A DNA stretch of 6,139 nucleotides from contig DAOVMD010000202.1 in NCBI GenBank assembly GCA_030630935.1, forward strand, positions 1 through 6,139. The letters run 5' to 3'. Numbering within the stretch: position 1 is the stretch's first letter; the number at the start of each line of letters is the position of its first letter. Under the pieces are notes generated by a model. It saw only the letters and a program-made list of their open reading frames with translations, was not told where the DNA came from and ran no database searches. Source of the stretch: Candidatus Mcinerneyibacteriota bacterium. Its GTDB lineage: Bacteria; AUK180; JAQVHJ01. Shown one piece after another: positions 1 through 3,745 of the stretch. Position numbers and translations under genes: made by a program.

Positions 1-136
1 AAAGAAGAAAGATAAAAAGATAATAGGGTTTGAAATTACGGAATGTTCGGAAAATAATAAAAAAATATTAAATTGTTTTGGCCTAAATATTAAAAAATTA
101 GAGGATTATATAGGTAAGACTTTTTCACTCTCATAA
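1..136 (+). CDS. 3' end of an unidentified gene entering from the left edge (partial)
   Basis: An open frame starting at base 2 runs 44 codons to a TAA stop at 134-136 with no in-frame ATG, so any start lies outside the window. The peptide is charged and lysine-rich, with a hydrophobic IIGFEI stretch near residues 7-12 and ending LEDYIGKTFSLS. The IIGFEI piece recalls the end of small DUF2283-like proteins, but this is too short to name a family. It is convergent with the cyclase gene and overlaps its last 47 bases on the other strand. That overlap is odd for two intact genes and fits the view that the cyclase tail is accidental read-through. It could also be a chance open frame, since the region is very AT-rich. 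Confidence 0.35.
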   Translation, partial: KKKDKKIIGFEITECSENNKKILNCFGLNIKKLEDYIGKTFSLS

Positions 137-2372
137 ATTCGTTTTTATCCCCAAAGATACAGTAGTTAAAAGGCTTTTTGCTTTTTTTAGGCGTCCAACT
201 TAGGTTAATAACTCTATAGAGCGAATCATTGTCTTCAGAAGCAGGAATTAATTCAATAAGATTATTTTCTTTAAGATATAAAATAAATTGTTCAATATAA
301 AAAGGATTACCTTGTGCTTTTGAATTAATGAACTCTATTAACTCATCATTTGCTTTTTGACCTAATTGATTCTTAATAAATTCACTAATTGAGTCAGAAC
401 TTAACATATCAATAATAATTTCATTTTGCAATTCACCTTTATCAATTTCCAGGAAAGGTGTTGAACTGTCATCATTAAAACGGCTTGTTGCAATTACTAT
501 AATGGGAAAATCCTTAATCTTTCGTGTTAGTGCTTTAAATAGCTTCATTGAATCATTATCTATCCAGTGAAAATCTTCAAGATAAAGGATTAAAGGTTTC
601 AATAGACTTAAGGCTTTGAAAAATTCTATTATTGCATAGAAGGTATTCTCAAATCGACCCCTGGCATCTAAATTCTCATATAAACTGTCTTCCCAATATA
701 TCCCAATCAAAGCTCCCAATATTGATTTTGTTCGTGTAAGCTCCTTTATTATTAATGGAATTTCTTCAAGATGATTATTTGTATCTGATCTGTTAAGTAA
801 AACACTTAGATCAAAAATCAATTTATTAAAAATTATTTCAAAATTTGTTTTTTTATCTGCCTCTTTAGTTTGACCATATTGTTTGAAGTAGTTTGTAAAC
901 ATATAAACGAAAGGATTCATACTCTTTTTTAAAATCGAATCAGTTTGAAGTAATAATGTTTGAAATTTATCGGTAAGATTGTCGGTAACCTCCGCTACAA
1001 GTTTTGATTTACCAATACTCGCTTCACCATAAACATAAACTATTCCACCAAACTTATTATTAAAAATTGTCTCTATATATTTTGTTAATCTCTTATATTC
1101 AATTTTCCTACCTACCATCGAACCTTGAAAGAATTTTGGTTTAATCTCTTGTTCGTGCCATAATAATTCAAATATTGGAATAGGTTTTGAAAAACCTCTA
1201 AATTCCTTGCGACCTAAATCTTTCAATTTATAAGTATTTACATTTCTTTTAACTTCTTCAGAAACCCAAACTTGATTCCAGTCAGCTCCTAGCATAAATT
1301 TTGCTGATTGATTAACAATGTTGCCTAAACATGTATAGGTACATCGTCGAGAGCTGCCGACAATACCAGAGTAAACTATTCCTTTTGTAATACCCACTCT
1401 AATATTATTACTATATCTATCCTTTAAGGATTTAATAAAATTAATTGCCCGACTGATATTATTTTCAAATGATACAGGAACTCCAAAAAAAATTACAAGA
1501 TGGGGACCTTTATCACCAAATGCAAGGCTGCTGATATATCCACCAAATTTAAAGGCATTTTCTAAAACCTCATTGATAAACGGTTGTAATTCTGTAAAAT
1601 CTTCAAGTTCTTTAAATGATATAAATACACTAACAACATCTCTAAACTCACCTTGCTGTTTATAATCAATAACACTATCAGGTAAAAATTTCGATACTAC
1701 ATCTCTTGATAAAATCGACTTGCTTTCTATAAGACAGGATAATTTCGTTCCGGAATCTGCTTCGGTTTTGTTAATTTCTTCAAATATGAAATATTTTTCA
1801 TTTGATTCTAAATTCGGTAATCTCCTGATCTTAACTGAACTATCTATAAAATCAGTAAAGACGCTATCCATGACTATTTGCATTTTTTTGCATTTAGCCT
1901 CTGAATTGGAACACCCATCAATTGGCTCACCTTTAAAATAAAGGGTCTTATATTTTGTAGTACCTATTATTCCCCAGCTAACATTCCCATGGGATAATCC
2001 TAACTTAAGACATAGTTCAAAGTCACCAAATTGGGTTTTCTGTAGCTTATTTTCTTGGAATACCTTTTTAACTGACCGAGCGGCAACTAAAGGTTTTACA
2101 TAATCGTCTGTTTGGAATATTGCTGTAAATGCATCTCCTGCAAAACCTGAGACGAAACCATTCCTCTCATATACTGCATCAATTACAGGTTGAAATATGT
2201 TATTTAAAATAGTTGAAAGAACTTCAACTCCCTCTTTTCCTTCTTTTAAGAGTTTTTCTGTCATTATTGTAAAACCGGAAATATCCATAAACATCGTGAA
2301 TGCTTTGAATTCTCCCGTGTAAATTCCCTTTTTGTAATTCTCCTGAATAAAATATGGGATTAGGTTTTTCAT
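90..2372 (-). CDS. Soluble-adenylyl-cyclase-like signalling protein (two cyclase domains plus NTPase), C-terminally truncated
   Basis: A 760-residue cytoplasmic class III nucleotidyl cyclase expected to make cAMP from ATP. Domain 1 (about residues 22-175) has both metal-binding aspartates, D30 in FMDISGFT and D80 in FAGDAFTAIF. Domain 2 (about 243-375) lacks them but has K288 (FGDKG), T347 (YTCLG) and N354 (NIVNQSAK), the substrate-side positions of the human soluble adenylyl cyclase type; K358 stands where an arginine is usual. An NTPase module follows, with Walker A GEASIGKS (449-456), Walker B LILYLEDFHWID (594-605) and an IATSR strand (627-631). Relatives usually continue with helical (TPR-like) repeats and exceed 1000 residues. 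Here family-like sequence ends near S725, and the last 35 residues are a lysine-rich tail. The ATG is preceded by AGGGGA, and the N-terminus LIPYFIQENYKKG matches the usual family start. It probably arose by rearrangement; whether it is still active is unknown. Confidence 0.9.
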   Translation of the reverse strand: MKNLIPYFIQENYKKGIYTGEFKAFTMFMDISGFTIMTEKLLKEGKEGVEVLSTILNNIFQPVIDAVYERNGFVSGFAGDAFTAIFQTDDYVKPLVAARSVKKVFQENKLQKTQFGDFELCLKLGLSHGNVSWGIIGTTKYKTLYFKGEPIDGCSNSEAKCKKMQIVMDSVFTDFIDSSVKIRRLPNLESNEKYFIFEEINKTEADSGTKLSCLIESKSILSRDVVSKFLPDSVIDYKQQGEFRDVVSVFISFKELEDFTELQPFINEVLENAFKFGGYISSLAFGDKGPHLVIFFGVPVSFENNISRAINFIKSLKDRYSNNIRVGITKGIVYSGIVGSSRRCTYTCLGNIVNQSAKFMLGADWNQVWVSEEVKRNVNTYKLKDLGRKEFRGFSKPIPIFELLWHEQEIKPKFFQGSMVGRKIEYKRLTKYIETIFNNKFGGIVYVYGEASIGKSKLVAEVTDNLTDKFQTLLLQTDSILKKSMNPFVYMFTNYFKQYGQTKEADKKTNFEIIFNKLIFDLSVLLNRSDTNNHLEEIPLIIKELTRTKSILGALIGIYWEDSLYENLDARGRFENTFYAIIEFFKALSLLKPLILYLEDFHWIDNDSMKLFKALTRKIKDFPIIVIATSRFNDDSSTPFLEIDKGELQNEIIIDMLSSDSISEFIKNQLGQKANDELIEFINSKAQGNPFYIEQFILYLKENNLIELIPASEDNDSLYRVINLSWTPKKSKKPFNYCIFGDKNEFMRVKKSYLYNPLIF

Positions 2373-2676
2373 TGTCCCCTACATATTTGATAAATAATTT
2401 TCATATTTCTAAAATTTCGCATATTCTTTCTACTTATAAATTTTTATATTTCATATTAGTATAACAAATATATTTATTAAAGTCAAATAAAATAAATTGT
2501 AATTCTTGGATAAATATAATTTAGTAGGTTATCTGTTTTAAGGTAGGTATAAATTCAAAATTATTTTAAATAAAACAATTAATATTCGAAAATCCGATAT
2601 GTTTTTTTATTCTAACTGAATGGAAAAATTAAAATACTCTATTATTTTTCATAATAAATTAAGGATTTTAAATTCA
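2373..2676. other. Gene-free AT-rich gap upstream of the cyclase gene
   Basis: About 300 bases without a supportable open frame on either strand. It must contain the promoter of the cyclase gene, read on the minus strand, but I see no convincing -35/-10 pair; TATACT-like and TATAAA-like words are expected by chance in such AT-rich DNA. The right part (from about 2611) is the diverged edge of the cold-shock duplication described separately. No tRNA-like or strong hairpin structure was seen in 2373-2610. Confidence 0.5.
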
Positions 2677-2713
2677 ACACAATGCTATTCCTGTTACAGA
2701 AATAGCATTGTGT
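2677..2713 (-). terminator. Stem-loop after downstream csp gene, probable terminator or 3' mRNA element
   Basis: Perfect 13-bp inverted repeat ACACAATGCTATT / AATAGCATTGTGT around an 11-base loop, lying 41 bases after the csp stop codon. In the csp transcript the stem is followed by UUGAAUUU rather than a clean U-run, so it is a weak match to a classical intrinsic terminator; it could instead protect the 3' end of the mRNA. The same structure recurs without a change after the other csp gene. Confidence 0.75.
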
Positions 2714-2754
2714 ATTGTAGATATATTAAATATACTATGATTTAAAAAAGAAAA

Positions 2755-2943
2755 CTAGACTTTTTTAACATTAACTGCACAAGGTCCTTTCTGACCTTCT
2801 CCAATTTCATATTCAACTACATCACCTTCTTCGATATAGCCTTGTACTTCATTTTTATGAACAAATATATCTTTCCCCTCTTCTTGGCTGATAAATCCAT
2901 AGCCCTTGCTTGGATTAAACCATTTTACTGTACCTTTTGGCAT
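2755..2943 (-). CDS. csp: Cold-shock domain protein, downstream copy
   Basis: A 62-residue single-domain cold-shock protein that binds single-stranded RNA or DNA and is expected to act as an RNA chaperone in the cytoplasm. RNP1 is seen as KGYGFI (residues 13-18) and RNP2 as DIFVH (25-29), with the family's opening GTVKWFN and closing [10 protein letters not shown]. It is a few residues shorter than the usual 65-70. The aromatic residue that usually follows RNP2 (HF) is replaced by lysine (HK), in both copies. GGAGG lies 7 bases before the ATG. It differs from the upstream copy only at residues 5 (T for K) and 42 (V for E). It has its own upstream blocks and 3' stem-loop, so it is probably transcribed alone, although read-through from the first copy is possible. 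Confidence 0.97.
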
Positions 2944-2987
2944 TTAAAAACCTCCATGTTTTTATTGTTAACCAAAATATTATTTAT

Positions 2988-3022
2988 ATTAAACCTAAAA
3001 TATCTTCGAGGTTTAATTTCAA
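2988..3022 (-). promoter_or_regulatory. Possible promoter region of downstream csp gene
   Basis: On the minus strand TTGAAA (3017-3022) and TTTAAT (2988-2993) occur in the same order as TTGAAA and TATAAT before the other csp copy. The spacing (23 bases here, 21 there) is longer than the 16-18 of a standard sigma-70 promoter, so the boxes are supported by their conservation between the copies rather than by a good consensus fit. A second conserved block, TATTTTGGTTAA, lies nearer the gene and could be the real -10-side element if this organism uses a Bacteroidota-type promoter. Confidence 0.35.
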
Positions 3023-3105
3023 AAAATACTTATTTAGAATTGAAAAAATTAAAGAACTTTATTGATTTTTTATTTTTAACATTAAATTATGTATTTTTAA
3101 TTTTA

Positions 3106-3142
3106 ACACAATGCTATTCCTGTTACAGAAATAGCATTGTGT
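3106..3142 (-). terminator. Stem-loop after upstream csp gene, probable terminator or 3' mRNA element
   Basis: It is the same 13-bp stem and 11-base loop as at 2677-2713, again 41 bases after the stop codon. The transcript continues UUAAAAUU, again without a strong U-run. Together with the identical bases up to the stop codon this makes an 82-base stretch (stop codon included) shared exactly by the two copies. Confidence 0.75.
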
Positions 3143-3183
3143 ATTGTAGATATATTAAATATACTATGATTTAAAAAAGAAAA

Positions 3184-3372
3184 CTAAACCTTTTTAACGT
3201 TAACTGCACAAGGTCCTTTTTGACCTTCTCCAATTTCATATTCAACTTCATCGCCTTCTTCAATGTAACCTTGGACTTCATTTTTGTGAACAAATATATC
3301 TTTTCCCTCTTCTTGGCTGATAAATCCATAGCCCTTGCTTGGATTAAACCATTTTACTTTACCTTTTGGCAT
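3184..3372 (-). CDS. csp: Cold-shock domain protein, upstream copy
   Basis: A 62-residue cold-shock protein, first of the tandem pair. It has the same RNP1 (KGYGFI, 13-18), RNP2 (DIFVH, 25-29) and HK substitution as its neighbour, with K5 and E42 where the other has T5 and V42. GGAGG lies 8 bases before the ATG. Of the 13 base differences between the two coding regions, 11 are silent, so both proteins are under purifying selection and both genes are likely working. The gene is preceded by a 373-base gap with several inverted repeats, which could include a structured leader as known for some csp genes; only the conserved blocks close to the gene support a promoter there. Confidence 0.97.
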
Positions 3373-3421
3373 TTAAAAAACCTCCATGTTTTTACTTTTA
3401 ACCAAAATACTACATATAAAA

Positions 3422-3454
3422 ATTATACCTAAGCTGACCGATTTTTAATTTCAA
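3422..3454 (-). promoter_or_regulatory. Possible promoter region of upstream csp gene
   Basis: The minus strand shows TATAAT (3422-3427), preceded by AGG, and TTGAAA (3449-3454) 21 bases further upstream. If the TATAAT is a -10 box, transcription would start near 3415 and leave a leader of roughly 40 bases. The spacing is too long for a standard promoter, so either the -35 is unused or another sigma factor acts. Equivalents of both boxes are kept before the other csp copy. Confidence 0.4.
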
Positions 3455-3494
3455 AAAAACCTTTGGCGGGGTATAACACACCTAAGTATGGGAA

Positions 3495-3519
3495 GGAAAT
3501 CAGTTTTTAACTAATTTCC
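3495..3519. other. Inverted repeat 1 (hairpin)
   Basis: GGAAAT pairs with ATTTCC and inside it AGTT pairs with AACT around a TTT loop, giving 10 base pairs with one C/A mismatch over 25 bases. There is no T-run on either side, so it is not an obvious terminator. It could be part of a csp leader or of a small RNA. Confidence 0.5.
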
Positions 3520-3532
3520 ATCAAATAACTCA

Positions 3533-3554
3533 TAAGGTTAAATTAATAACCTTA
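3533..3554. other. Inverted repeat 2
   Basis: TAAGGTTA and TAACCTTA form perfect 8-bp arms around AATTAA. It is either an operator-type site for a dimeric regulator or a short RNA hairpin. It lies 13 bases from repeat 1 and 10 bases from repeat 3. Confidence 0.5.
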
Positions 3555-3564
3555 AAACACTATA

Positions 3565-3579
3565 TTGTTATGATAACAA
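3565..3579. promoter_or_regulatory. Inverted repeat 3, 7-1-7 operator-like palindrome
   Basis: TTGTTAT-G-ATAACAA is a perfect 7-1-7 palindrome. Fur-superfamily regulators (Fur, PerR, Zur) bind sites of this geometry, and TGTTAT/ATAACA half-sites occur in some Zur boxes, so the resemblance is real but not diagnostic. It lies about 190 bases upstream of the first csp start and is not next to any gene start, so an active operator would need a promoter I have not identified. Confidence 0.3.
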
Positions 3580-3745
3580 AAATTAAAGCAAAAGTCAAGT
3601 AAAAAATTGTGAGAATAAAATCTTCTAATGATAAGATGACAACAAAAATTGGTCTAAAACCGATTAAATGTATATTGCTAATCACTAAAAATGTCCGATT
3701 TTATAATCACCAAAACTTAATATCATGAAATTATAGTACCCTTCT

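Follow-up and report, generated by a model that had tools for sequence, protein, structure and literature searches.

What keeps the untranslated 3′ ends of two neighboring cold-shock genes identical, base for base, when the genes themselves have accumulated silent changes? The window in which this question arises is an entire contig (C180; 6139 bp) of a 3.16-Mb draft genome that consists of 471 contigs and is 80% complete. The initial annotation had described 82 of 82 identical bases running from the stop codon through a stem-loop in both copies, and a letter-by-letter comparison confirms this. A recount also agrees that the 189-base genes differ at 13 positions, 11 of them silent; the other two are replacements (T/K at codon 5 and V/E at codon 42). 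The further statement that the upstream parts differ more is borne out, with 89% identity between the copies over the proximal 45 nt and 67% over the 161-nt upstream region. Two explanations had been offered, that the 3′ region is a functional RNA element or that gene conversion homogenized it locally. For the perfect identity we favor the second and hold it likely, with moderate confidence, that a recent local conversion passed across an ordinary, hairpin-bearing csp 3′ end. The hairpin itself is most simply read as the ordinary 3′ end of the csp mRNA.

The genes of the window lie on the minus strand. In transcription order, they encode a cytidine/dCMP deaminase-family protein, a glyoxalase-family protein, a YggS-type protein (Ala_racemase_N), a short product, the two cold-shock proteins, and a cyclase-AAA protein. 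The short gene, just upstream of the csp pair, is without a family match. The cyclase-AAA gene (90-2372, minus strand) adjoins the pair downstream and combines a cyclase catalytic domain and an AAA_16 ATPase domain in one 760-aa protein. Both csp products contain the CSD domain (PF00313; 74.4 bits against a Pfam gathering score of 27). A long intergenic region of ~370 bp (3373-3745) precedes csp copy 2 and overlaps a match to the Rfam cspA thermoregulator, a 5′ leader (3325-3494, minus strand). This match is below threshold (19.3 bits against a cut-off of 78, E = 0.085), and it is the only trace of a known Rfam RNA family in the contig. Coordinates of the csp units are given in Table 1.

Table 1. 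Positions of the two csp genes and of the parts of their 3′ ends and flanks within the window.
Feature	Positions	Strand	Description	Evidence
csp copy 1	2755-2943	-	62-aa cold-shock domain protein	ORF; Pfam PF00313, E = 6.7e-21
csp copy 2	3184-3372	-	62-aa cold-shock domain protein; 60/62 residues as in copy 1	ORF; PF00313, E = 6.5e-21
Proximal leader of copy 1	2944-2988	-	SD GGAGG	89% identical to copy 2 leader
Identical tract, copy 1	2676-2757	-	Stop codon, 41-nt AT-rich linker, hairpin, and one base	82/82 identical to 3105-3186
Identical tract, copy 2	3105-3186	-		82/82 identical to 2676-2757
Linker of copy 1	2714-2754	-	41 nt, starts UUUUCUUUUUU after the stop codon	Unchanged between copies
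Linker of copy 2	3143-3183	-	41 nt	Identical to copy 1
Hairpin of copy 1	2677-2713	-	37 nt, 17 pairs, one G.U (csp sense), loop UAA; tail UUGAAUUUAAA, without a real U-tract	Fold z = -5.5
Hairpin of copy 2	3106-3142	-	37 nt; tail UUAAAAUUAAA	Identical to copy 1
Sequence beyond hairpin of copy 1	2596-2675	-	Homologous to the copy 2 counterpart, strongly diverged	Local alignment above 2000/2000 shuffles; 64% identity, gaps counted

Because the flanks are homologous but diverged and enclose islands of identity, the pair probably goes back to an old tandem duplication of the whole csp unit that has since diverged. Such a duplication would have copied about 430 bp (leader, gene, and 3′ end), and the two identical tracts are offset by 429 positions. 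Silent sites and outer flanks would then have diverged strongly (dS about 0.4). The coding sequences now stand at a dS of about 0.40 and a dN of 0.013. Their silent differences are patchy: all 11 fall in codons 23-62, where about 24 silent sites are available to change, and codons 1-22 have none (P = 0.007). The coding part contains an identical run of 54 nt. Patchiness of this kind is as expected if conversion acted on the genes as a mosaic.

When the TAG stop codon (3 of the 82 bases) is set aside, the noncoding identity is 79/79. Compared with the silent sites, where 11/35 have changed, the absence of any change in the 3′ untranslated region (UTR) is highly significant (Fisher test, P = 6e-7), and this excess of identity over the background of the pair is what a conversion tract would leave. 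The contrast is weaker against all coding sites (13/186 changed, P = 0.012), and if the 13 differences were spread uniformly over 275 nt, a run of at least 82 would arise with a probability of about 0.13. The significance of the identity thus depends on the yardstick, and the silent-site test is the appropriate one. The first differences flanking the copy 1 tract lie at 2675 and 2758, so that the tract spans the hairpin foot to the stop codon; differences nearby are dense, which is compatible with boundaries that are either functional or random.

A stable stem of 17 pairs lies 3′ of the stop codon, as it does in an intrinsic terminator. However, a U-rich tract directly after the stem is absent from both tails (Table 1), and a scan with a terminator consensus finds no terminator. 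For these two reasons, we consider that the hairpin may be a non-classical terminator, or a processed or protected 3′ end. Among 312 genes of the same genome (a background sample of 60 contigs, 429 kb), the longest 3′ hairpin has 15 pairs, fewer than the stem found here. A mismatch replaces the G.U pair when the opposite strand is folded; pairing in the csp sense suits a predicted structure that is used in the csp mRNA.

Could selection on this hairpin suffice? Under that explanation, selection acts on the hairpin alone, which serves as an ordinary terminator or stability structure, and the linker and loop are identical by chance within a stretch that evolves slowly. Such hairpins are frequent in csp genes of other genomes (68 of 121 have one that begins no more than 60 nt after the stop codon, 44 of these 68 with a T-rich end), and the uniform model, with its long runs, would leave room for chance. 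Neutral change at this locus is, however, far above the uniform model, as the silent sites attest. Furthermore, selection on a hairpin preserves pairing, not letters, so the fact that linker, loop, and all 17 pairs are unchanged at a dS of 0.40 argues against it. There is no compensatory or wobble change between the copies in the 17 stem pairs, and none of the 41 linker positions has changed. We regard selection on the hairpin alone as highly improbable.

The initial annotation had reasoned that an untranslated stretch should not change more slowly than silent sites. As a yardstick, we used the orthologous csp genes of two genomes (G120 and G257), the closest by genome search (70% protein identity). 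Their silent divergence (dS 0.43) is close to that of the pair described here, and their 3′ flank has changed at 8/67 sites (12%), compared with 33% of silent sites. Because this flank evolves more slowly than silent sites, the neutral expectation was too strong. Measured against the flank rather than the silent sites, the unchanged UTR (0/79) gives P = 0.0015. Note that in the same two genomes (L199 in G257 and L200 in G120, minus strand) a csp leader block of ~45 nt (GTGTATTGTTAGCGAGTGGAACGGTGTTCTCA...) is almost unchanged despite the 33% difference at silent sites. The GTGGAAC within this block is complementary to GTTCCAC of the 3′ flank, a possible leader-to-3′-end pairing.

De Bruijn assemblers can treat a lone difference in an otherwise identical stretch of ~80 nt as a mergeable bubble at small k, which does not hold for more closely spaced differences such as those of the coding region. 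One or a few real UTR differences might therefore have been merged by a short-read metagenome assembler, and the draft is fragmented and incomplete. If one or two differences were hidden, significance against the ortholog yardstick would fade (P = 0.012 and 0.044, respectively), but silent sites would still have changed significantly more than the UTR (P = 6e-6 and 3e-5). The contig also runs cleanly through both copies. We consider an assembly effect very unlikely.

The initial annotation had proposed looking for the stem-loop and its preceding bases in this genome and in related ones; this search recovered only the two copies within the genome and no match in 60 relatives. The two copies, being identical, carry no covariation. 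A mobile repeat (REP or MITE) was rejected on the grounds that just two copies are present in the genome. An exact search of viral contigs with the hairpin core found no match. In plasmid and phage collections, the csp unit has only partial matches of 60-80% identity, and csp genes of this type were not found in six other genomes of the phylum.

The main alternative is that the whole 3′ UTR is a regulatory element whose very sequence is maintained by purifying selection. For example, both copies might be autoregulated by Csp that binds the U-rich UUUUCUUUUUU, with the hairpin shielding the end; alternatively, all 79 nt might be recognized by an sRNA or a nuclease. The absence of UTR changes at a dS of 0.4 is what such selection would produce. 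So is a tract bounded by the stop codon and the hairpin foot, beyond which homologous sequence has diverged. Cold-shock proteins favor pyrimidine- and T/U-rich single strands, with a BsCspB consensus of GTCTTTG/C (PMC7825780). In U content, the UTR start exceeds 97% of the ORFs sampled from the same genome (the T content of the first 20 nt of the linker is reached by only 2.7% of 365 ORFs). Yet csp genes elsewhere have no U-enriched 3′ UTR start (T fraction 0.259 versus 0.246, P = 0.47). Such a start is therefore not supported as a general csp feature, and Csp binding to UUUUCUUUUUU is hypothetical here.

Other observations also count against selection on the whole UTR. Nearly all of its 79 bases would need to be constrained, the closest csp relatives have 3′ flanks unrelated to it, and in other tandem csp pairs the 3′ ends are not conserved. 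According to a review (PMC7821165), conservation in bacterial 3′ UTRs usually breaks off near the stop codon, and does so even when the species compared are related. A perfectly kept UTR is thus unusual, and recent copying is the cheaper explanation. We judge sequence-specific selection on the whole UTR to be rather unlikely. Its narrower form, in which the 79-nt UTR is a sequence-specific control element of both csp mRNAs and Csp on the U-rich stretch controls termination or decay at the hairpin, seems to us doubtful. If selection were nonetheless at work, the csp 3′ UTR would hold a regulatory element that parallels the controls known for the 5′ leader.

Gene conversion between neighboring bacterial paralogs is well documented (PMC12046097). 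Our literature search on conversion in csp genes in particular found nothing relevant, but other tandem csp pairs record it. Three species of one genus (G077, G218, and G347; L201, L202, and L203) carry a tandem csp pair. The copies within G218 differ at 1/192 sites, whereas the same pair differs at 11/192 in the sister species G347. G218_b is 1 site from G218_a and 9 from its ortholog G347_b. This is a clear case of gene conversion, in which copy a has replaced the sequence of copy b along about 200 nt (a 204-nt tract). A fourth pair (G027; L148, minus strand) has a 106-nt identical tract over the leader and the first half of the gene that ends abruptly; all 34 differences lie behind it, and the second half of the gene is strongly diverged. 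By analogy, conversion in G218 and G027 favors conversion here. Two other pairs show a different pattern. In G056, a 20-nt hairpin core is kept amid indels and changes, and in G242 (copies 2.2 kb apart) a GCATCTC/GAGATGC stem persists with diverged loop and linker. To judge from sequence, these two pairs reflect selection on structure, and the csp pair here resembles the conversion cases.

Two features nevertheless count against conversion. First, the boundary of the tract lies no more than one base from the hairpin foot, even though homology continues past it. This suits function better than it suits a random tract end, unless conversion stops where homology breaks down, in which case the boundary is compatible with conversion. 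Second, of 17 adjacent tandem pairs examined, the pair described here alone has its identical part in the 3′ UTR. None of the 16 others has the 3′ UTR as its best-conserved part, and their 80-nt 3′ flanks are 37-77% identical, compared with 99% here. Separately, one contig (G277:C201; L205) carries two csp genes 2.15 kb apart (1130-1327 and 3282-3479). Their flanks are 97-99% identical and their coding sequences 95%, with coding changes clustered in the first half, so that here, too, conservation is higher in the flanks than in the gene.

The analysis shows the identity, its excess both over silent sites and over the ortholog yardstick, and conversion in other tandem csp pairs; from this we infer that conversion occurred here, as well as its direction and the role of the hairpin. 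Under the conversion that we favor, the 3′ UTRs, after the early divergence, would have been made identical anew by recent conversion between the copies. The converted tract would extend from the hairpin foot to the stop codon and measure 82 nt or more. The hairpin would be an ordinary mRNA 3′ end, either terminator-like or a barrier to 3′-5′ exonucleases, and it would have been retained in both copies since neither can do without a 3′ end. If this is correct, the locus is a warning against taking identical untranslated stretches of tandem paralogs for conserved function. It would also mean that patchwise homogenization recurs among small tandem csp genes of distant bacteria.

The csp pair can be compared with three kinds of known system. 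Conversion between pe_pgrs27/28 and between pe_pgrs17/18 of M. tuberculosis (PMC12046097) likewise leaves a mosaic of identical tracts and diverged stretches with abrupt ends; there, the tract lies in the coding part, whereas here it lies in the 3′ UTR. The tandem pairs of G218 and G027 are likewise adjacent same-strand CSD genes, 164-174 bp apart, with identical tracts of 106-204 nt; in contrast to the pair described here, their tracts cover leader and coding sequence and their 3′ ends are unrelated. The intrinsic terminators of csp mRNAs share the strong hairpin, which here follows 41 nt after the stop codon, where many csp genes usually have it. The hairpin here departs from these terminators in its 17-pair stem, longer than any in the genome sample, and in having no real U-tract. 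The pair is thus mostly ordinary, as conversion also occurs in other tandem csp genes.
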